DNA of 31,189 bases from a virus. Shown one piece after another: positions 1 through 31,189 of the stretch. The notes under the pieces were generated by a model. The model was not told where the DNA came from, searched no databases, and was given only the letters and a program-made list of their open reading frames with translations. The first letter of the stretch is position 1. Each line of letters begins with the position of its first letter. The stretch lies in IMG/VR virus record IMGVR_UViG_3300027821_000019, positions 1 through 31,189 of that record; one strand, given 5' to 3'. Made by a program: the position numbers and the translations under genes.

Positions 1-22
1 GGGGGGGGGGGGGGGGGGGGGG
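1..22. repeat. G homopolymer at left edge (22 nt)
   Basis: The first 22 bases are all G, and the window ends in six more G. A two-colour sequencing artefact makes poly-G at the 3' end of reads, which would appear as poly-C at a left contig edge, so the left tract is not easily explained that way. The simplest reading is a true G tract at which a circular molecule was opened during assembly. On the minus strand the tract lies inside an open frame and would encode polyproline. Confidence 0.7.
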
Positions 23-89
23 TCGCACGCTCGCCGCGCGTGCGTCCATATCTCACCGATCGCAGCGACGAGCGAACGCCTTTCGTCAT
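1..89 (-). CDS. Small leftward ORF running into the poly-C tract (5' part)
   Basis: The minus-strand ATG at 89 is preceded by a strong ribosome binding site, GGAGGA at 102-97, with seven bases of spacing. The frame stays open to the edge and reads MTKGVRSSLRSVRYGRTRGE, then A-T and a run of prolines from the C tract. The peptide is very basic and I recognise no family. It follows the repressor gene in the same direction after a gap of about 100 bases, so it may be the second gene of the lysogeny operon. Its other end is probably the partial frame at the right edge of the window, but the reading frame after the join depends on the true length of the tract. Confidence 0.45.
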   Translation of the reverse strand, partial: MTKGVRSSLRSVRYGRTRGERATPPPPPP

Positions 90-193
90 GGGTCTATCCT
101 CCGAACGCCGAACCGCAAGACACGACGATATCGATCCCCCCTGTAAGAAAATCTGTAGGGGCGTACTCTCTGAACCGACACGAACGCGCACGA

Positions 194-655
194 TTACCCG
201 CTGTGATTGTCGGCGGCCGTTTGACGACGACGGCCGACGGCCGAGCGGAGTCGACGGGGGCCGTCGTCCTTGCCCCGTCTCGCCCGCTGTCCGAGGTGGT
301 ACACGATCAACGTCTTAAACGCGTTTCTCGCGTGTGGGTCGAGCGATTGGATCTGCCTGAACAACGCGCGATCGGTCGCCGTCCCCTTGGGGGCAACCCC
401 GCGTCGAGCGGGACCGTACAGCGTTTCGATCACGTCGGCCGTGTGTCCATGGCCCGCCGTTCGTAACACGAGCGACGCCGATACGCCGCCCGCGAGCGCG
501 ATCCGCAAACAGACGTCGGGCACGGGCGGCAATCCGCCGCCGAGTAACCGACTGATCACCGACGGATTCACCTCGGCCTCGCGGGCGAACTCTTTTTGCG
601 TCCCCGCGTACCCGTCGACGATCACGCGCATCAATCCCGCGAACGCTTTCGACAC
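194..655 (-). CDS. Phage repressor-like HTH protein (Xre/CI type)
   Basis: This 153-residue protein carries a helix-turn-helix near residues 19-41 (TQKEFAREAEVNPSVISRLL), typical of Xre/CI-type DNA-binding proteins. The rest has no recognisable dimerisation or LexA-like cleavage domain, and the C-terminal 30 residues are rich in Arg. The start is GTG at 655, with AAGGTG about six bases upstream. It faces away from a rightward HTH gene across a 192-base gap that contains a direct and inverted repeat array, the usual layout of a lysogeny switch. It probably holds the rightward promoter shut in the lysogen. Identity as the immunity repressor is inferred from position and HTH, not from a close homologue. 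Confidence 0.75.
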   Translation of the reverse strand: MSKAFAGLMRVIVDGYAGTQKEFAREAEVNPSVISRLLGGGLPPVPDVCLRIALAGGVSASLVLRTAGHGHTADVIETLYGPARRGVAPKGTATDRALFRQIQSLDPHARNAFKTLIVYHLGQRARRGKDDGPRRLRSAVGRRRQTAADNHSG

Positions 656-8233: not shown

Positions 8234-8370
8234 TGCGGTACCACTGCAATTTTTGCGGGAAGTCGGTCACATCTGAACTCCCGAGCGACGCCGTGATCCG
8301 CGCGATTCTGGTTTGTCCCGAGTGCATCGAGGCCGGGAAGATCACGATCCCCGACGAGCGGCCGAAATGA
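8233..8370 (+). CDS. Tiny zinc-ribbon protein between TerS and TerL
   Basis: A 45-residue protein with CNFC at residues 5-8 and CPEC at 28-31, a complete four-Cys zinc ribbon. It overlaps the TerS stop by one base and the TerL start by four, so it is translated as part of the packaging operon. A zinc ribbon in this place could help bind DNA or TerS, but no function is known to me. It is short enough to be missed by gene finders. Confidence 0.65.
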   Translation: MRYHCNFCGKSVTSELPSDAVIRAILVCPECIEAGKITIPDERPK

Positions 8371-10031
8371 TCCACCGGGTGCACGCGTACGCCCGCGACG
8401 TGTTGCGCGGGCGGATTGTCGTCGGGCCGCTGGTCGCCCTCGCGTGCGAACGTCACGAGCGCGACCGGCGCGCCAAGGGGTTTACGTTCGATCCCGCCGC
8501 CGCGAACCACGTGATCGACTTTATCGAGCAATGGTGTCGGTTGCCCGACACGGCCGACGAGTACGGCGACCCGCGCGTGTTTCATCTCGAACCGTGGCAG
8601 ACGTTCATTGTCGGATCGTTGTTCGGGTGGATCCTCCCGAGCGGGCACCGACGATTCCGCAACGCCTACATTGAAGTCGGCAAGGGGAACGGGAAAACGC
8701 CCCTCCTGGCGGCGATCGGCCTCTACGGGTTGACGTCGGACGGGCAAATCGCGCCGCAAATTTACGCCGCCGCCGCCGATCGCGATCAAGCGATGGTGAT
8801 GTACCGCGACGCTGTCCGCATGGTCGACGCCTCGCCCGCGTTGTCGAAACGGATCGTCAAGTCGGGGATCCAGTCGGTGCACAACATGGCGTACGGCCTC
8901 GGGTTTTTCCGGCCCTTCTCGCGCGAGCAATCCGCCAAGTCGGGCACGCGGCCCCATATGGGATTGATCGACGAATTGCACGAACACCCGAACGGCGACA
9001 CCGTCAACAAGATGCGCGCGGGCGCGAAAGGGAACCTCGACGCGTTGTTTCCCGAGATCACCAATTCCGGCAGCGATCGCACGTCGATTTGTTTTCAGCA
9101 TCACGAACACTCGCGGCACGTGCTCGACGGGACCGTCGAGGACGATCGATGGTTCGCGTACGTGTGCGCGCTCGCGCCCGGCGACGATCCGTTGATCGAT
9201 CCCGCGTGTCATATCAAAGCGAATCCGAACCTCGGCGTGTCGATTCAACGCGAGTACCTCGCCGATCAAGTGTCGGCCGCGCGCAACATTCCCGGCGAAA
9301 CGAACACGGTGTTGCGTCTCAATTTTTGCGTCTGGACGCAACAACATACCCGGGCGATCGACATGACGGCATGGCGGGAATGCGCGCCGCCGCCGCCCGA
9401 CGAGGCGCTCGTCGGCGTCCCCTGTTACGGCGGCCTCGACCTCGGCCAGTCGGACGACTTCACGGCATGGGTTCGGATCTGGACGCTCGACGACGGGCGC
9501 GTCGTCGTCAAGTGTCGGTTCTGGTTGCCCGAGGCCGCGCTCGTGAAATATCCCCATCGGCCGTACGCGCCATGGCAACGGCGCGGATTGCTCACCGTGA
9601 CCGATGGGTTGATCACCGATTACGACACCGTCGAGGCGACGGTCGGGGAGGATTGCCAACGGGACGGGATCCGGTCGGTCGCGTATGACAAACGGTTTGC
9701 CGAGCAACTCGCGCAACACTTGATCGGGGACGGCGTCGACATGGTCGATCAACCGCAGGGGTTTCAACTCACCGAGGCGATCCGGCGCAAGGGCGAGCTC
9801 GTCGCCGCCCGGGCCCTCTGTCACGGCGATAACGAGATCCTCGCGTGGATGGCCGCGAACTACGTGATCCGGCACGGCATGCGCGGCGACACGCGACCCG
9901 ACAAGGACAAGGCCGCCGACAAGATCGACGGGCAAGTCGCGCTCGATATGGCGTTGGCGATCTGGATTCGACAACCGAACGTCGCGCCGCCCGCGTATCA
10001 AGTGATGGTATTCGGAGGGCCTCACCCATGA
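8367..10031 (+). CDS. terL: Terminase large subunit
   Basis: A 554-residue packaging motor and nuclease. The ATPase shows Walker A VGKGNGKT at about 104-111 and Walker B MGLIDELHEH with the Asp202-Glu203 pair. The nuclease shows GGLDLGQSDDF with Asp358, and a late DKIDGQVALDMAL, both typical of the RNase H-like terminase domain. This is the HK97/YmfN-type family, paired as usual with P27 TerS. The start overlaps the preceding zinc-ribbon gene. Length and motifs are complete, so the protein should be active. Confidence 0.95.
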   Translation: MIHRVHAYARDVLRGRIVVGPLVALACERHERDRRAKGFTFDPAAANHVIDFIEQWCRLPDTADEYGDPRVFHLEPWQTFIVGSLFGWILPSGHRRFRNAYIEVGKGNGKTPLLAAIGLYGLTSDGQIAPQIYAAAADRDQAMVMYRDAVRMVDASPALSKRIVKSGIQSVHNMAYGLGFFRPFSREQSAKSGTRPHMGLIDELHEHPNGDTVNKMRAGAKGNLDALFPEITNSGSDRTSICFQHHEHSRHVLDGTVEDDRWFAYVCALAPGDDPLIDPACHIKANPNLGVSIQREYLADQVSAARNIPGETNTVLRLNFCVWTQQHTRAIDMTAWRECAPPPPDEALVGVPCYGGLDLGQSDDFTAWVRIWTLDDGRVVVKCRFWLPEAALVKYPHRPYAPWQRRGLLTVTDGLITDYDTVEATVGEDCQRDGIRSVAYDKRFAEQLAQHLIGDGVDMVDQPQGFQLTEAIRRKGELVAARALCHGDNEILAWMAANYVIRHGMRGDTRPDKDKAADKIDGQVALDMALAIWIRQPNVAPPAYQVMVFGGPHP

Positions 10032-10272: not shown

Positions 10273-12174
10273 ATGCTCGATCGCGCGTACGCCGTGTTGC
10301 ACGTCAAGGCGATCGACCTCGAACAACGGACGATCGCCGGGATCGCGTCGACCCCCGAACCCGATCGCATGGGCGACATCGTCGAGCCCCTCGGGATCAG
10401 TTTTAAAAACCCCCTCCCCCTGTTGCTGTACCACGACGCGAAAAAACCCGTCGGGCGCGTCACGTTCAACGCGCCGACGGCCGACGGGCTCGCCTTTACG
10501 GCGTCGCTCCCGATCGTCGACGAACCGGGCACCCTGCGGGATCGCGTCGACGAGGCGTGGCAGTCGATCAAGGCCGGGCTCCTGGCGGGCGTCTCGATCG
10601 GGTTCCGTCCGACCGTGTCGCCTGAATTCAACAAGGCGACGGGCGGGTTTCGGATCACCAAATCGGAGATCCTCGAACTCTCGCTCGTGACGATTCCCGC
10701 GAACGCGGGCGCGTCGATCTCGTCGATCAAATCGCTCGATCTGGCCGCGTCGGGCCGTGACTCGTCCCGCGATCGGGGCCCCCTCCCAATCGTGCGCGTC
10801 GACAAGGACGCGCAACCCATGGAACAGAAAACGATCAACGAACAGATCACCAGTTACGAGAACACGCGCGCCGCGAAACACGGCCGCATGACCGCGATCA
10901 TGGATAAATCGGCGGCGGCGGGCGCGACGCTCGACGACACCGAAACCGAGGAGTACGACGGCCTCGTCGCCGAGATCAAAGCGATCGACGCGCACCTCGT
11001 GCGGTTGCACGCGCTCGAATCGACCGTGATCACCAAGGCGACGCCCGTTGTGGTCACGCCGAACGCGGCCGCCGCGAGCGACGCGCGCGGCGGGATCCCC
11101 GTGATCCAAGTCCGATCGATGCTCCCGAAGGGGACCGGGTTCGTCCGGTACGTACAAGGGCTCGCGGCCTGCAAGGGCAACCTCATGCAGGCGTTCGAGT
11201 ACGCGAAACGGTGGGACGACTCGACGCCCGAGGTCGGCCTCGTGTTTAAGGCCGCCGTTGCGGCGGGCACCACGACCGACGCGACGTGGGCCGGGCCCCT
11301 CGCGCCCCTCATGCCGTTGACGAGTGAGTTTCTCGAACTGTTGCGCCCGGCGACGATCCTCGGCAAGGTTCCCGGGTTTCGGCAAGTCCCGTTCAACGTG
11401 ACGATCGCGTCACAAACCGGCGGCGGTACGTATCAGTGGGTCGGGCAAGGCGCGCCGAAACCCGTCGGGAAACTCCAATTCGGATCCGTGTCGCTCACGA
11501 TCACCAAATGCGCGGGGATCGTCGTGATCACATTGGAGCTCGCGCGCACGTCGACGCCGTCGGCCGAGGCCGTGATCCGGCAAGACATGATCAACGGGAT
11601 CGCGGCGTTTCTCGACGTCGAATTTACCGATCCGACAAAGGCGGCCGTCGCGGGCGTCTCGCCGGGTTCGGTGACGAACGGCGTCACGCCGATCACGACG
11701 GCGGGGACGACGCCCGCCAACGCGCGCACCGATATTCAGGCCATGGCTAACGCCATGGTCGCCGCCAACATTCCGATCGGCGGGGCCGTGTTGCTCATGT
11801 CGAGCACGAACGCGCTCGCCCTCTCGAACGCGCTCAACGCCCTCGGGCAACCGTTGTTCCCGAGTATGAGCCTCGACGGCGGAACCGTGATGGGCGGGAT
11901 CCGCGTGATCACGAGTCAGGCCATGGGGACGACGGTCGCCCTCGTGCAACCCGACGCGATTCTCTACGCGGACGACGGCGGCGTGACGATCGACGTCTCG
12001 CAAGAGGCGTCGGTACAGATGGATTCGGCCCCCGACAACCCGGGCGTTGCGACAACGGTCCTCACGTCGCTCTGGCAAAACAACCTCGTTGGCCTGCGGG
12101 CCGAACGGTTTATCAATTGGAAAAAGGCGCGTGCGGGATGCGTGCAATACACGGTCGCGACGTACACGGCGTAA
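10273..12174 (+). CDS. Prohead protease-major capsid fusion protein
   Basis: A 633-residue polyprotein. Residues 1-150 are an S78-type prohead protease: LLLYHD with His54, GVSIGFRP with Ser108, and EILELSLVTIPAN with Glu135, a complete triad. Residues about 185-260 are a helical linker like the HK97 delta/scaffold segment, and residues 280-633 are an HK97-fold capsid protein (QTGGGTYQWVGQGAPKP, the usual E-loop/P-domain area, and SLWQNNLVGLRAERFINW at the end). In HK97 protease and capsid are separate genes. Here self-cleavage would have to release the capsid part. Start has no visible ribosome binding site. Confidence 0.9.
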   Translation: MLDRAYAVLHVKAIDLEQRTIAGIASTPEPDRMGDIVEPLGISFKNPLPLLLYHDAKKPVGRVTFNAPTADGLAFTASLPIVDEPGTLRDRVDEAWQSIKAGLLAGVSIGFRPTVSPEFNKATGGFRITKSEILELSLVTIPANAGASISSIKSLDLAASGRDSSRDRGPLPIVRVDKDAQPMEQKTINEQITSYENTRAAKHGRMTAIMDKSAAAGATLDDTETEEYDGLVAEIKAIDAHLVRLHALESTVITKATPVVVTPNAAAASDARGGIPVIQVRSMLPKGTGFVRYVQGLAACKGNLMQAFEYAKRWDDSTPEVGLVFKAAVAAGTTTDATWAGPLAPLMPLTSEFLELLRPATILGKVPGFRQVPFNVTIASQTGGGTYQWVGQGAPKPVGKLQFGSVSLTITKCAGIVVITLELARTSTPSAEAVIRQDMINGIAAFLDVEFTDPTKAAVAGVSPGSVTNGVTPITTAGTTPANARTDIQAMANAMVAANIPIGGAVLLMSSTNALALSNALNALGQPLFPSMSLDGGTVMGGIRVITSQAMGTTVALVQPDAILYADDGGVTIDVSQEASVQMDSAPDNPGVATTVLTSLWQNNLVGLRAERFINWKKARAGCVQYTVATYTA

Positions 12175-12355: not shown

Positions 12356-12781
12356 ATGGGCGACTCGGCCGACGTGACGGCGCGCGTCTATCACACGGAA
12401 CACGGGAACGAACACCTTGAGGGGGAAACCTACAGCGTCGACGACGAGGCGTTGCTCGAAACCCTGCGGGGGATCGGGTTCGTGTCGATCGAAGGCTGGA
12501 CGCCCGTCACGCCGCCCGCCGCGCCCGTCCTCACGACGTTGACGCCGTCGACGTGCGTCGTCGGCGCGGCCGCGTTCACGTTGCGGGTTCAGGGCTCGGG
12601 GTTCACGGCAACCGACGTCGTCAACCTGAACGGCGCGCCCGTCGCGACGACGTTCGTCTCGGCAACCGAACTCACGACGCCGGTCGCCTCGCCCGTCAGT
12701 GCGGCGGCGATCCCCGTCACCGTGCAAGGGGCGGGCGGCGCGAGTAACGCCCTCACGTTCACCGTCACGGCGTCGCGGTAA
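12356..12781 (+). CDS. IPT/TIG Ig-like domain protein, likely capsid decoration
   Basis: A 141-residue protein starting after AAGAGG. Residues 58-141 form an IPT/TIG-type immunoglobulin fold: PVLTTLTPSTCVVGAAAF, then LRVQGSGFTATDVVNLNG, ATTFVSATELTTPV and IPVTVQGAGGASNALTFTV are the expected strands. The N-terminal 50 residues are acidic. Ig-like domains are frequent on phage capsids and tails, where they are thought to help weak attachment to cell surfaces or to stabilise the shell. Its place just after capsid supports a head role. Confidence 0.75.
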   Translation: MGDSADVTARVYHTEHGNEHLEGETYSVDDEALLETLRGIGFVSIEGWTPVTPPAAPVLTTLTPSTCVVGAAAFTLRVQGSGFTATDVVNLNGAPVATTFVSATELTTPVASPVSAAAIPVTVQGAGGASNALTFTVTASR

Positions 12782-14199
12782 TGGCGGCGTTTACCGTCCT
12801 CGGGCGGCGGGTCGAGCTCACCGTCAAGCAAACGCCGCCCCTGCAAGACGTCGGCGGCCGCTCGAACGGCTGGTGGCCGATCGTCGTGCGCGAACCGTTT
12901 ACGGGCGCGTGGCAAGTCAACATGGAAGCGCGGCGCGACGTCGCGTTGACCTACTTCGCCGTGTTCGCGTGCGTCACGTTGATCGCGTCGGATATCGGGA
13001 AACTCTCGCTCCAATTGCTCGCGCAAACCGCCGACGGGACATGGGAGGAAACGACGAGCGCGGCGTTTTCGCCGGTCCTCCGCAAACCGAATCGCTACCA
13101 AACCACGCACAAATTCGTCGAGCAGTGGATCACGTCGAAACTGGCGTGGGGCAATACGTACGTCCTCAAGCAACGCGACAATCGCGGCGTTGTCGTGGCG
13201 ATGTACGTCCTCGACCCGGCGCGCGTGCGGCCTCTGGTCGCGCCTGACGGCGGCGTGTATTACGAGCTCAGTCGCGACAACCTCGGGGGCGATCTCGCGG
13301 GCCTCGGCGTGACGAGTATCACCGTCCCGGCGCGCGAGATCATCCATGACACGATGGTGTGTTTGTTTCACCCGCTCGTCGGGATCTCGCCGATCTATGC
13401 GTGCGGGCTCGCCGCACTGCAAGGGCTCTCGATCCAAAACAACTCGTCGCAACTCTTCGCCAACGGGAGCAACCCGGGCGGCGTGCTCACGGCCCCGGGC
13501 GCGATCAACGACGAGACGGCGGCGCGCATCAAAGCGTATTGGGAAACGAATTTTACGGGCGCGAACGTCGGCCGTACCGCCGTGCTCGGCGATGGGCTCA
13601 AGTACGAACCGATGGTGATTAACCCCGTCGACGCGCAATTGATCGAGCAACTCAAATGGACGGGGGAAAACGTCTGTAGTTGTTTCCACGTCCCGTCGTT
13701 CATGATCGGCCTCGGCAACGCGCCCCATTTCGCGACCGGCGTCGAGCCCCTGTTGCAACTCTATTACTCGCAGTGCTTGCAATCCCTGTTGACGAACTTC
13801 GAGCAGCTGTACGACGAGGGCGTCGGGATCGCCGAACCGATCAACGGGACGCAATACGGCGTCGCGTTCGATATCGACGATCTCGTGTGGATGGACACGG
13901 CGACGAAAACGAAGGCCGCCGCCGACGCGATCGGCGCGGGCGCGATGTCGCCTGACGAGGCGCGTTGGAAGTACTTCGCCCTCGGCCCGGTCACGGGCGG
14001 CGATACGCCGTACATGCAACAGCAAATGTTTTCGCTCAAGGCCCTCGCGCAACGCGACGCGAGCGATCCGTTTGCGAAACCGGCACCCGCCCCCATGGCC
14101 GCGCCCGCGACGCCGACACCGACGCCCTCGGGCGAACAGGTCAAACATATCGACGTCGTTGTCGCGGCGTTGCTCGAACGCGAATTACAGGCCGCATGA
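12781..14199 (+). CDS. HK97-like portal protein
   Basis: A 472-residue protein starting in TAATG overlap with the previous gene. Characteristic features: FAVFACVTLIASDIGKLSLQLL near residues 58-79, PNRYQTTHKFVEQWITSKLAWGN, HPLVGISPI, NGSNPGGVL, and FHVPSFMIGLGN with the following LLQLYYSQCLQSLLTNFEQ, all typical of the portal family that forms the dodecameric DNA gate. Residues 420-450 are a Pro/Ala/Thr linker. Portal is encoded after the capsid, while HK97-type phages usually have terminase, portal, protease and capsid in that order. Confidence 0.92.
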   Translation: MAAFTVLGRRVELTVKQTPPLQDVGGRSNGWWPIVVREPFTGAWQVNMEARRDVALTYFAVFACVTLIASDIGKLSLQLLAQTADGTWEETTSAAFSPVLRKPNRYQTTHKFVEQWITSKLAWGNTYVLKQRDNRGVVVAMYVLDPARVRPLVAPDGGVYYELSRDNLGGDLAGLGVTSITVPAREIIHDTMVCLFHPLVGISPIYACGLAALQGLSIQNNSSQLFANGSNPGGVLTAPGAINDETAARIKAYWETNFTGANVGRTAVLGDGLKYEPMVINPVDAQLIEQLKWTGENVCSCFHVPSFMIGLGNAPHFATGVEPLLQLYYSQCLQSLLTNFEQLYDEGVGIAEPINGTQYGVAFDIDDLVWMDTATKTKAAADAIGAGAMSPDEARWKYFALGPVTGGDTPYMQQQMFSLKALAQRDASDPFAKPAPAPMAAPATPTPTPSGEQVKHIDVVVAALLERELQAA

Positions 14200-17517: not shown

Positions 17518-20067
17518 ATGCCGATCACGGGGACATTCGGGGCCGACTTCTCGGCGTTTCAAACCGCCGTCGATCAAGCGACGACGAAATTGATCACGTT
17601 CGAGGGCAACGCAACCAACGTCACCAATTCCCTGTCGCGCATGGAGAAGTCCTTTTCCGGCGTGAAGATCATTCAGGATGCAACCCTCATGGCCGACGCG
17701 ATCGAGCGCGTCGGCGGCGTCTCGAAACTCACGGCAGACGAGCTCGAACGGGCGGGCAATCAGGCGCAGGCGGCGGCCGACAAAATGCGCGCGATGGGTA
17801 TGGACGTGCCCGAGGGGATCCAGCGGATCGCCGACGCCGCGAAAAGTACCTCGGGCGCATGGTCCGAATTCGTCCAAGGGTTCGACGTCAAAGAGGCGAT
17901 CGAACACCCCATGGCGGCGGCAACCGACGCCGTCAAAGCGTTGGCGACCGAGATGGGCCCGGCGACCGTCGCCGCGTTGGGGTTCGCGACCGGCGTCGCG
18001 GCCGTCGCCGTCGGGCTGTTCGAGCTCACCGAGCACGCCGCGAAAGTCGGCGGCGAACTCAACGATCTGAGCGAACGAACCGGCGTCGGCGTCGTGCAAC
18101 TCTCGAAGTACGCCAACGCCGCCGCCGTCGCGGGCGCGGATCTCGGGACCGTCGGCGACGCGATGTTTAAATTGCAAAAAGGGATCGGGGAGGATTCGCC
18201 CAAGGTCGCCGAGGGGCTCGACAAGATCGGCCTCTCCATGCAAGACATCAAAGACATTGGGATCGATCAACAACTCGACTTGATCGCGACGGCCCTTGCC
18301 GCGACCGAAGATCCCGCCGCGCGCGCCGCCGCCATGACGGAAATTTTCCGCGACAAAACCGGCGCGTTGTTGCCCGTGTTGTTGAAACTCCATGAGGCCA
18401 TGGCGATCACCAACGACATCTCCCCATGGACGCCGCAACAGGCCGCCGACGCCGAAAAGTTTGAAATGCAAATGGCGTCGATGAAAGTCCACGCCGAGGC
18501 GTTCGCCGTGTCGCTCGGGCGCGATCTGATCCCCGCCGTGTCGGGGCTCGTCGAGGTCGGGAAGCCCGCCGTGTCGTGGCTCGCCGAATTCGTCGCCGAG
18601 TCGAGCTCGATCCCCGGGATCCTCCGAATCGGGGCCGACGCCGTCGGGTACCTGACGGCGGCGTACGAGACGTTGACAGGGAAAACCGAACTCCCGATCA
18701 AGATTCTCGTCGACACCGAGGACGCGAAAAAGAAACTCGACGAGATCCGCGACAAGGCGTACGCCGCCGCCAACGCCCCCGCTGAATTCGAGAAAAATTG
18801 GGTGAAGGCGTTCACGAACGCGGCGGCCCCGATCCCCACCCTCGAAACGGCCCTCAAAAACCTGACCGCCATGCAGGAGGATTCCCGTAACGTCACGATG
18901 GAGCAAGCGAAGGAAGCTCAGAAACTCGCCGACGCGTTCGGCGAGCTCGCGAGCGCGGGGGCCGGGTGGAAAGGCACGCTCGACACGATCGACGGATCCG
19001 TCGTCGAGGCGATCGCCGGGTACCGCGAATCTGGCGTGTCGCTGCAGGCGTTGAAAGTGATTTACTCCGACTTGACCGACACGCAATTCGCCTCGATCGA
19101 GAAACTGATCACGGCCCGCCACGACGAAGTCAAGCAACTCGAACACGACGAGGCCGAAAAACAAAAGCTTGAAGCCAAAACGATCGAGATGACGACGAAG
19201 CTATGGGACGAGTACTACGCCGTGCAAGCGTCGCGCGCGGGCACGGCAACCGACGCCCGCAAGGCCGCCCTCGACCGGCAGTACAACGACGCGGCCGCGA
19301 CGGCCGTCCGCATGGGGATCGCCGACAAGGATTATTGGGACGCCCTTGAGGCCCGGTGGAAACAAGGGACGGAGTCGCTCGGCGTCGATTGGGCGGCGTT
19401 GCAAAAGGCGGCGACGACGGAGTCGAAGGCGGGCCTGCAGCAAATCGCCGACGGCGCGAAAGCGACGTACGCCGAGGCCCTCAAACACGTCGGGGAATGG
19501 TCCGACGCCTCGATCGAAAAATTCCGCACGACGGCCGAGGAAGCGCAAAAGGCCGCCGACATGTTCGGGACGGGTTGGGCCGACAACGCCGACAAAGCGA
19601 AACGGAAAGTCGACGAGATGACATCGTCGGTAATCGGATCGATCCACGCGATCGCGGCGGCGTCGGCGTCGGCGACGATTCCCGCAGGGGCGAGCAACCC
19701 GTACCCGGATACGGCCGAGGGCCGTCTGAAAATGCTCGCCGATCAACAGGCCCGCAACCCCACGCAATTTATCAACGCCTCGGGGATGTTCGGCGGCCTG
19801 CCTGCGTTCGGCGGCGGCGGATCGGGCGACTTCGGATCGGGCACGCCGGTGATGTTGCACGGCAAAGAGGCCGTGGTACCGCTCGACAACAGCAACGCGA
19901 GCAACATTCTGTACGGCGGGGCGGCGGGGATCGCCGGGTCGACGATCAACCTCACCGTCAACGTCACGCAACCGCTCGGGACGCCCGATCAAGTCGCGCG
20001 CGCCGTCGGCGATGCGCAAGTGTCGGTGCTCAAGGGGCAAGGCTTGCGCCTGCCGTACGGCACATGA
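17518..20067 (+). CDS. Tail tape measure protein
   Basis: An 849-residue protein, the second largest here, with long helices rich in Ala, Glu, Lys and Asp, one predicted hydrophobic segment at about residues 147-169 (GPATVAALGFATGVAAVAVG), and no enzymatic motif such as a lysozyme or peptidase domain that I can see. The C-terminal 100 residues are Gly/Ser rich with strands (STINLTVNVTQPLG). Tape measures set tail length at about 0.15 nm per residue, which would give a tail near 125 nm. It follows the chaperone pair directly and ends four bases into the hub gene. Confidence 0.92.
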   Translation: MPITGTFGADFSAFQTAVDQATTKLITFEGNATNVTNSLSRMEKSFSGVKIIQDATLMADAIERVGGVSKLTADELERAGNQAQAAADKMRAMGMDVPEGIQRIADAAKSTSGAWSEFVQGFDVKEAIEHPMAAATDAVKALATEMGPATVAALGFATGVAAVAVGLFELTEHAAKVGGELNDLSERTGVGVVQLSKYANAAAVAGADLGTVGDAMFKLQKGIGEDSPKVAEGLDKIGLSMQDIKDIGIDQQLDLIATALAATEDPAARAAAMTEIFRDKTGALLPVLLKLHEAMAITNDISPWTPQQAADAEKFEMQMASMKVHAEAFAVSLGRDLIPAVSGLVEVGKPAVSWLAEFVAESSSIPGILRIGADAVGYLTAAYETLTGKTELPIKILVDTEDAKKKLDEIRDKAYAAANAPAEFEKNWVKAFTNAAAPIPTLETALKNLTAMQEDSRNVTMEQAKEAQKLADAFGELASAGAGWKGTLDTIDGSVVEAIAGYRESGVSLQALKVIYSDLTDTQFASIEKLITARHDEVKQLEHDEAEKQKLEAKTIEMTTKLWDEYYAVQASRAGTATDARKAALDRQYNDAAATAVRMGIADKDYWDALEARWKQGTESLGVDWAALQKAATTESKAGLQQIADGAKATYAEALKHVGEWSDASIEKFRTTAEEAQKAADMFGTGWADNADKAKRKVDEMTSSVIGSIHAIAAASASATIPAGASNPYPDTAEGRLKMLADQQARNPTQFINASGMFGGLPAFGGGGSGDFGSGTPVMLHGKEAVVPLDNSNASNILYGGAAGIAGSTINLTVNVTQPLGTPDQVARAVGDAQVSVLKGQGLRLPYGT

Positions 20068-28684: not shown

Positions 28685-29947
28685 TCACGACTCGCCCCCC
28701 GTGTCGGCCTTGTCGACGGCCCATACCTCGTCGAGGCGTTTGCGGCGCGCGATCGTCTCGGCGGCGTTGTCGGGGATCCAGTGGCGATAGATCCGCTCGG
28801 TTGTCGTGATGTGCGCGTGTCCCAATTGGCGGGAGACGTAGTCGAGGCGCTCGCCGCGCGACAACAAGGTCGACGCGTACGTGTGCCGTAGGCCGTGGAT
28901 GTCGATCACCGGGACGCGCGCCGCCTTGATCAGCGGGGCAAGGATCCGCGATCGGATGTTGCGCCCGTTCAGGCGGTTCCCGTGTAAGCGCGTCGCGAAC
29001 ACGAGCGACGGCGCGGGCCGCCCCCGCTGAAACGCCCCCTCGCGTTGCGCCGCCCGATGCGCCGCGATCACGCGGTCGAGCTCGGCCGACGTGTCGACGA
29101 GGCGGCCCCGCTTGTTTTTCGGCGACGTGATCGATGAGGCCCCCTCGACGGCCTCGCGCGTGCGCGTCCCGTCGGCCGCGATCGTCCAGACGGTCCGCTT
29201 GTTCGTGGCGAACGCGCGTTGCACGTGGATCGCGTGCGCGTGCTTGAAGTCGAGATCCCATTGCAACTCGACGAGCTCGCCGACACGCAACCCCGTCCGC
29301 AAGGCGACGAAGAAAAACCCGTAGTAATCGGGCCGCCGCGCGCGCACGGTTTCGAGAAACCGATCCGCCTCGGCAGGCGTCCAGACGGCGACCTCGTCGG
29401 GCAACTCGTCGGGCGATTTGAGAAACTTCTCCAGACGGCTCGCCGGGTTGGCGGCGATGAGATCGGCCTCGACGGCCGCGCCGAGGACGGCGCTTAACGC
29501 CCCGTGGATCGCCTCGCGCGTTTTATACCGGATGAGGCCGAACGGCGGGCGCGTGCTCGTGGTCGTGAGCAACCCCTTACAAAACGCCTTGCACGCCTCG
29601 CGCGTGACTTTGGCGATCGGCGTGTCGCCGAGGGCCGGGTACACGTGCAGGCGCAACAACCGCTCGTACGAGTTGTTCGTCGACATTTTGCGCCCGGCCC
29701 ATCCGTCGACGAGCCAACGATCGCCGAACGTGCGGATCGTGTCGCCGCTCGACGCCGGGCGCGCCGTCGCCGATCGTTTGCTCGCCGGGCGCATGTCCTC
29801 GCCCTTGCGCATATGCGCATTGATCGCCTTGGCGAGCGCGCGGGCCGTCGGTTCGTCGGCCGCCTGTTGTTGCCAACGCGCGCCGTGCTGGTGACACTGG
29901 ATCACCCATTCGCCGCGATCGGCGCGGTAGTTCACCTTAGCGGACAT
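28685..29947 (-). CDS. int: Tyrosine-family integrase
   Basis: A 420-residue site-specific recombinase that would insert and remove the prophage. The catalytic residues are in place: Arg221 in RTGLRVGEL, a Lys near 277-279 (SPKNKRG), His351 and Arg354 in HGLRHTYAS, His377 in RQLGHAHI and the nucleophile Tyr387 in TTTERIYRHW. The N-terminal 60-180 segment is a core-binding domain, and the first 50 residues a small arm-binding domain (YRADRGEWVIQCHQHGARWQ). The start at 29947 has AAAGGA upstream; a 14-residue extension is possible. It overlaps the 3' end of a small basic protein gene by 11 bases. Confidence 0.93.
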   Translation of the reverse strand: MSAKVNYRADRGEWVIQCHQHGARWQQQAADEPTARALAKAINAHMRKGEDMRPASKRSATARPASSGDTIRTFGDRWLVDGWAGRKMSTNNSYERLLRLHVYPALGDTPIAKVTREACKAFCKGLLTTTSTRPPFGLIRYKTREAIHGALSAVLGAAVEADLIAANPASRLEKFLKSPDELPDEVAVWTPAEADRFLETVRARRPDYYGFFFVALRTGLRVGELVELQWDLDFKHAHAIHVQRAFATNKRTVWTIAADGTRTREAVEGASSITSPKNKRGRLVDTSAELDRVIAAHRAAQREGAFQRGRPAPSLVFATRLHGNRLNGRNIRSRILAPLIKAARVPVIDIHGLRHTYASTLLSRGERLDYVSRQLGHAHITTTERIYRHWIPDNAAETIARRKRLDEVWAVDKADTGGES

Positions 29948-30086
29948 GGCGATCCTTTCGAGGGCGGCCGCCGCGTTTCCCGTTTTCACGGGACGCGGCG
30001 ACCTTGGCGGGGGAGGTGGAACGGCCGCCGAGGCGGCCGAGGGCGACGAACGGCGTGAGCTTGCGTGTTTGATTAGGTTTTTTCAC
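29937..30086 (-). CDS. Small basic 'GGRPRK' protein upstream of integrase
   Basis: A 49-residue protein that starts with GTG (MKKPNQTRKLTPFVALGRLG) and contains SPAKVAASRENGKRGGRPRK, the KGG-like/AT-hook tail widely seen in short proteins near phage or plasmid recombination genes. It is positively charged and likely binds DNA. It overlaps the int start by 11 bases. No Shine-Dalgarno is seen, and a TATACT box lies only six bases upstream, so its message may be leaderless. It might be a recombination directionality factor, which has not yet been identified here. Confidence 0.6.
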   Translation of the reverse strand: MKKPNQTRKLTPFVALGRLGGRSTSPAKVAASRENGKRGGRPRKDRHVR

Positions 30087-30113: not shown

Positions 30114-30551
30114 TTATGGCTGTTTCCGCCAATCCACGACGAACGGTTTCGCCGTCCGCTTGTACTTGTCGCCGACTTTTTTGAGAAAACCCGCTTGCAG
30201 TAACGGGCTGTACCCGATGCGCCCGCCGCTGCCGACGGCCGCCGTGATCTCGGCCGACGTAAGCGGCCCCTTCTCCTCGACGAACGCGAGCACGCGGGCC
30301 GTGCGTTCGCGGATCGCGAGTTTCTCGCGCGTATGGTCGCCCCGGCCGCTCTTTTTCGATTTCGGTTTCGATTTCGGGGCACGGCGGGCGGCGTCGAGCG
30401 CGAGCGCGTCGCCGAGGACGTCGGCCGAACGCTCGACCCGCTTGTCGACCGCGTGCCCGTTCAACGCCGCCGCCGCGAGACGATACGCCGCCGCCGCGCG
30501 TTCGGCCTCGGTCGCGAGGGCTAACAGTTTCTCGATCGCTTTGCTGCTCAT
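30114..30551 (-). CDS. Winged-helix-like DNA-binding protein
   Basis: A 145-residue protein. The C-terminal half, ARVLAFVEEKGPLTSAEITA, then GRIGYSPLLQAGFLKKVGDK, has the helix-turn-helix and wing order of a winged helix. The N-terminal 50 residues form Ala-rich helices, and a Lys/Ser/Pro stretch (APKSKPKSKKSG) joins the two. Start overlaps the previous gene by four bases (ATGA). In the lysogeny operon it may be a regulator or an exclusion protein; no specific name can be given. Confidence 0.6.
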   Translation of the reverse strand: MSSKAIEKLLALATEAERAAAAYRLAAAALNGHAVDKRVERSADVLGDALALDAARRAPKSKPKSKKSGRGDHTREKLAIRERTARVLAFVEEKGPLTSAEITAAVGSGGRIGYSPLLQAGFLKKVGDKYKRTAKPFVVDWRKQP

Positions 30552-31051
30552 GTCGTCGTCGATCCTTGTCGCGCAGTGAACCGATCGACCCGTACGCGAT
30601 GCGCGTGATCACGGCGGGCGGCCTTGCGTCGTTTCCGGGTGTTCGTTTCGGCGGCGGCCTCGGCGGCGTCGCGCGTCTTGAGCGACGCGAACGTATGCAC
30701 GGCGGCGCCTTTCTCAAGGTGTCGCTTGACCCATGATTCGAGCGGCGCGTTGCCGCCGAGGCCCTTGATCTCGAACACGGCCCCGAGGACGGCGATCGCG
30801 ATCGACCCGATGCGGGGCAAGGCGAGCGCGGCGGGCGGGACGTTCTCGAACACGTCGCGGACGTCTTTGACGTGTAAGTGCCGATTGAGCACGGCCGACA
30901 ACGTCGCCGCCGCGAGGAAATTAAAACAGTCGACGTGCGCGAGCGCGGCGCGATCGAACGTGTCGCGCCCGATCCGCAACAACACGGCGTCGTGACGTTC
31001 GCGTAAGCGTTTGGTGATGTACGTGCCGAGGACGCGATCGGACAAGTCCAT
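30548..31051 (-). CDS. Hypothetical 167-aa protein of the lysogeny operon
   Basis: Begins MDLSDRVLGTYITKRLRERH after AGAGGATC. Middle part is hydrophobic and helical (FNFLAAATLSAVLNRHLHVK, PRIGSIAIAVLGAVFEIKG), with a late cationic tail (TRKRRKAARRDHAHRVRVDR). No recognisable family. It is coupled to the winged-helix gene and follows the partial gene at the right edge. It might be a superinfection-exclusion or other lysogenic-conversion protein, but only location suggests this. Confidence 0.55.
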   Translation of the reverse strand: MDLSDRVLGTYITKRLRERHDAVLLRIGRDTFDRAALAHVDCFNFLAAATLSAVLNRHLHVKDVRDVFENVPPAALALPRIGSIAIAVLGAVFEIKGLGGNAPLESWVKRHLEKGAAVHTFASLKTRDAAEAAAETNTRKRRKAARRDHAHRVRVDRFTARQGSTTT

Positions 31052-31066
31052 ACAGTGATCCTCTGG

Positions 31067-31189
31067 TTAGGCGCGGCGTTTGGGGTACCGGGTGAACGTC
31101 ACGACGGCGACGGCGCGACGAATGACGAGGGGGAGATCGGTTATCGCGCGACGTTCGTGATTGACACCGCGCGAATTATGTGAGGGGGG
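31067..31189 (-). CDS. 3' part of a leftward ORF entering from the right edge
   Basis: An open minus-strand frame from the edge, starting in the terminal C run and reading SHNSRGVNHERRAITDLPLV then IRRAVAVVTFTRYPKRRA and TAA, 15 bases before the next start. There is no internal ATG, so its start is beyond the window. It is probably the other end of the small ORF that begins at 89, linked by the homopolymer; the join is in frame only for some tract lengths. Confidence 0.45.
   Translation of the reverse strand, partial: PPSHNSRGVNHERRAITDLPLVIRRAVAVVTFTRYPKRRA

Follow-up and report, generated by a model that had tools for sequence, protein, structure and literature searches.

A temperate phage contig with a G homopolymer at both termini, probably within one small gene of the lysogeny region

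Gene content and terminal homopolymers

The window analysed here is the full linear IMG/VR record IMGVR_UViG_3300027821_000019 (31189 bp), which has the gene content of a temperate siphovirus (Table 1). It opens with 22 G residues and closes with six, as originally predicted; both runs lie on one strand and extend to the very end of the record. Read in the sense of the small gene described below, the long run is a C tract, and the short run probably forms its far edge. The G22 is not expected from the base composition and the terminal runs are not a matter of chance: the longest G or C run elsewhere in the window is 7, GGGGGG occurs at 8 of the 31161 interior positions (2.6e-4), and a terminal run of at least 5 was present in none of 49 tract-free contig ends. 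A homopolymer shared by both termini on the same strand is what a circular genome linearised at a G tract would display, and the G22/G6 pair has this form.

Table 1. Features of the window and of the corresponding region in the related contig L128
Feature	Record	Position	Strand	Remark
G22 homopolymer, left terminus	window	1..22	+	C tract on the coding strand of the small gene
Small ORF, N-terminal part	window	23..89	minus	MTKGVRSSLRSVRYGRTRGERA plus one base; enters the tract; no detectable L128 homology
GGAGGA ribosome-binding sequence	window	97..102	minus	7 bases before the ATG at 89
Repressor-like protein, 153 aa (phrog_3949)	window	194..655	minus	52% identical to the L128 repressor
Terminase large subunit	window	8313-10031		
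Major head protein	window	10273-12174		
Portal	window	12781-14199		
Tape measure	window	17518-20067		
Tyrosine integrase (Phage_integrase)	window	28685..29989	minus	
145-aa protein of unknown function	window	30114..30551	minus	4-base overlap with the 167-aa gene
167-aa protein of unknown function	window	30548..31051	minus	ATG at 31051; conserved in related phage contigs
Small ORF, C-terminal part	window	31067..31183	minus	SHNSRGVNHERRAITDLPLVIRRAVAVVTFTRYPKRRA, stop; homologous to the C-terminal half of the L128 52-aa ORF
G6, right terminus	window	31184..31189	+	probably the other side of the same tract
Repressor	L128	9242-9688		
52-aa ORF	L128	9820-9978		
167-aa homologue	L128	starts 10001		

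If the record is circularised, the leftward gene order reads repressor, small ORF, 167-aa protein, 145-aa protein, integrase. The small ORF is the one split by the tract. An ORF with a GGAGGA start signal had been predicted to run from position 89 into the C tract, and an open frame to leave the C run at the right edge and to end just before the next leftward gene; we found both. On the minus strand the frame from the ATG reaches the tract after 22 codons and one base, whereas the right-edge frame starts with TCA at 31183, stays open for 38 codons and leaves a gap of 15 bp between its stop and the ATG that opens the 167-aa gene. Since no start codon precedes the conserved part of this right-hand fragment, the N-terminus must lie beyond the contig edge. 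The remaining two right-edge frames stop early, as had been claimed, but 13 and 2 codons past the tract rather than about 15 and 3. When the two parts are joined via n C residues, one protein results only if n = 2 mod 3 (68 aa at n = 23). The tract lengths that can be read from the contig are 22 (if the runs overlap) and 28 (the sum, 22+6), both of which are out of frame, and the junction itself falls outside the record. No known family was matched by the small protein.

The 167-aa protein belongs to a conserved family that related phage contigs (L128, L129, L131, L132 and L133) encode in their lysogeny regions and that is marked by the motifs LAHVDCFNF and AIAVLGAxFE. The family had no match in Pfam or PHROG and was not found in the bacterial genomes or the phage collection that were searched.

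Comparison with related contigs

A search with the 167-aa protein (63% identity) yielded the record IMGVR_UViG_3300005764_000124, here called L128, in which the repressor, a 52-aa ORF and the 167-aa gene follow each other without a break. The right-hand fragment of the small ORF (RRAITDLPLVIRRAVAVVTFTRYPKRR) aligned to RKPIDELPAEVRRAVSVLARAKLKRRR, the C-terminal half of the L128 52-aa protein, with a score of 55 that was equalled in none of 5000 shuffles; the two other frames of the right-hand end did not match that protein. For the left-hand fragment (23 residues) no similarity to L128 was detectable. The window and L128 thus have in common the gene order, a homologous repressor, the C-terminus of the small protein and the 167-aa protein. 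They differ at the place of the tract, where L128 has no homopolymer and encodes QRPRPPRKP with C runs of at most 4; its linker is rich in proline and arginine and written in C-rich codons (CGCCCGCGCCCGCCCCGC).

The sequences at the two ends of the window are therefore neighbours in a related genome, a statement that concerns one relative only (L128) and a left-hand fragment that has no homology there. The gene order in L128 and the homology of the C-terminal piece suggest that both ends flank one small gene and that the genome is circular or permuted. The same two lines of evidence support the original proposal that the ends join within one small gene of the lysogeny operon. As far as sequence comparison goes, it is most likely that both contig ends flank a single gene, possibly with extra sequence between them.

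Searches based on the repressor matched only the record of L128. The contigs L129/L130, L131, L132 and L134 carry different genes at the place of the tract and are uninformative on it. When L134 (3300046535_000116) was compared with the window between 28685 and 1096, it showed a similar integrase; it also showed 93% identity in the protein encoded at 1311-2021. In between, it carries a different regulator block and lacks the 167-aa and 145-aa genes. Judged from such comparisons, the immunity region is mosaic.

Homopolymers at contig ends

The main alternative to a genomic tract is an artefact, in which the variability of the immunity region or low coverage ended the contig and the G run came from bad reads or library tails. 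We regard this as possible rather than probable. A scan of IMG/VR for G22 gave at least 120 contigs, and among the matches listed the tract lay within 150 bp of a contig end in 93 of 120, against the 2% expected under uniform placement. Since most of these tracts are near ends, finding G22 at a terminus already points, on its own, to a stopped assembly. Many of the end-located tracts among the matches listed were surrounded by low-complexity junk. This clustering, the lack of a tract in L128, and the mosaic nature of the immunity region among relatives, which can also break assemblies, speak for the artefact. So does the related contig 3300013308_000228: it is broken in the same inter-gene region, both of its ends carry similar junk, and its tract lies on the opposite strand. 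The latter break indicates that the locus is prone to such ends and that the tract is not conserved.

Against an artefact stands the fact that both ends of the window are clean, on the same strand and flanking the same gene. Among the matches listed 30 tracts were exactly terminal, and the opposite ends of all 30 contigs were examined; a same-strand pairing like that of G22 and G6 was seen in two of them, L064 (G28/G9) and L092 (G26/G9). The occurrence of this pairing in two other records favours a real tract over a read-tail artefact. In L064, L092 and the window alike, a read directed outward meets C at the end that carries the long run and G at the end that carries the short one. Loss or trimming of G-ending reads at a real tract would predict this asymmetry.

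Two-colour sequencing is known to produce poly-G tails (PMC9712116). Such tails predict outward G at both ends, whereas the left end of the window reads C, and as the sole cause they were rejected. For the end-located tracts among the matches listed, outward C exceeded outward G by 62:38 (p = 0.02), the reverse of what two-colour tails predict, which counts for a real tract; for the 30 exactly terminal tracts listed the two orientations were balanced (16 to 14). Clean interior tracts of G22 to G33 also occur. In addition, the exact 127-bp direct repeat at the termini of L104 spans a long G/C tract, a structure that a circular genome assembled across such a tract would be expected to show. Taking these observations together, we hold the tract in the window to be probably real.

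The records L064 (3300020162_000595, with L176) and L092 (3300024265_000111, with L177) measure ~41-43 kb; their same-strand terminal G tracts make it probable that they, too, are circular phage genomes interrupted at such a run. In L092 the tract has a short ORF running into it on one side and a long open frame running out of it on the other. The 127-bp repeat was seen at the right end of L104 and with L187 (3300022744_000033), has a hairpin adjoining the tract, and is consistent with a circular genome containing a real G tract. Another arrangement was found in L070, L084, L101 and L105, which contain repeated elements, several copies per record, that pair a hairpin of the type TGCCAA...TTGGCA with an adjacent G/C tract of at least 22. 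A GC-rich hairpin beside the tract of the window (24-44) was considered as a structural cause and dropped: the window has 53 such stems, and the folding energy of this one is unremarkable. Rfam gave no match.

Interpretation

The best explanation, to which we assign a probability of about 0.6, is that assembly stopped at a real G/C homopolymer in a short gene of a circular or permuted phage genome. The record would then most likely be a near-complete circular or circularly permuted temperate-phage genome that was opened at the G tract. Assembly would have halted inside the short gene between the repressor and the conserved 167-aa gene, at a probably real tract of at least 22 bases in a proline/arginine-rich linker region of the short protein. 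C-rich linker codons like those of L128 could have expanded by slippage. A tract length of 2 mod 3 would yield polyproline in frame, and any other length would yield a protein that is truncated after the tract.

The original prediction went further and saw in the tract a phase-variable switch within the joined gene. The joining was borne out by the comparison with L128; the switch was not supported, since the tract sits exactly at the contig break, where most of the IMG/VR tracts listed are located, L128 is tract-free and the lengths 22 and 28 are out of frame. In bacteria, G/C homopolymers like this one serve as contingency loci. As a special case of a real tract, slippage in the C tract of the proline-rich linker would toggle a small protein of the lysogeny operon and leave the population mixed in lysogeny, and the parallel with bacterial contingency loci speaks for this, as do a tract of at least 22 bases within an ORF whose start signal is good and a conserved C-terminal frame into which translation passes only at 2 mod 3. 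We nevertheless consider such a switch unlikely: L128, the one relative that has the gene unbroken, lacks the tract, the searches turned up no second copy of the locus that would show length variation, and neutral expansion of the linker or a decaying gene fits equally well. The exact 20-base flanks had no other copy in IMG/VR, in a search from which records of this same genome were possibly left out. A tract at a contig end can be read as a switch only with the reads in hand. Confirmed length variation of the tract within the small gene would make it a contingency switch acting on phage lysogeny, a kind of control for which the open-access literature searched held no precedent (an absence, not a proof).

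Cos sites usually lie near HNH/terminase genes. That the contig termini are physical ends of the virion DNA, with the homopolymer as a 3' tail added during library preparation, is very improbable and was rejected because the termini interrupt a lysogeny-operon gene some 7 kb away from the HNH/terminase genes, and also the right end reads outward G and not C, even though library kits that add low-complexity tails exist (PMC6612421) and the outward-C run could fit such a tail.

Comparison with known systems

The locus resembles the phase-variable genes with homopolymeric tracts of Neisseria, Bordetella and Campylobacter in that a G/C homopolymer probably lies inside a reading frame and its length modulo 3 would decide on expression. 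It differs from them in that the bacterial genes have a demonstrated length variation and phenotype, whereas the gene in the window belongs to a phage lysogeny operon and carries a tract that is at most a candidate for such variation.

The window also resembles the contigs with poly-G/C ends in IMG/VR (at least 120 records), in which G22 can likewise stand exactly at the terminus, and in particular L064 and L092, which like the window have a same-strand run at the other terminus. Most of the sampled ends are messy or one-sided, in contrast to the two sides of the window, which are clean and placed by synteny in one gene. A viral contig that is labelled linear and ends in poly-G/C can thus represent a circular genome, nearly complete, whose assembly broke at a homopolymer.
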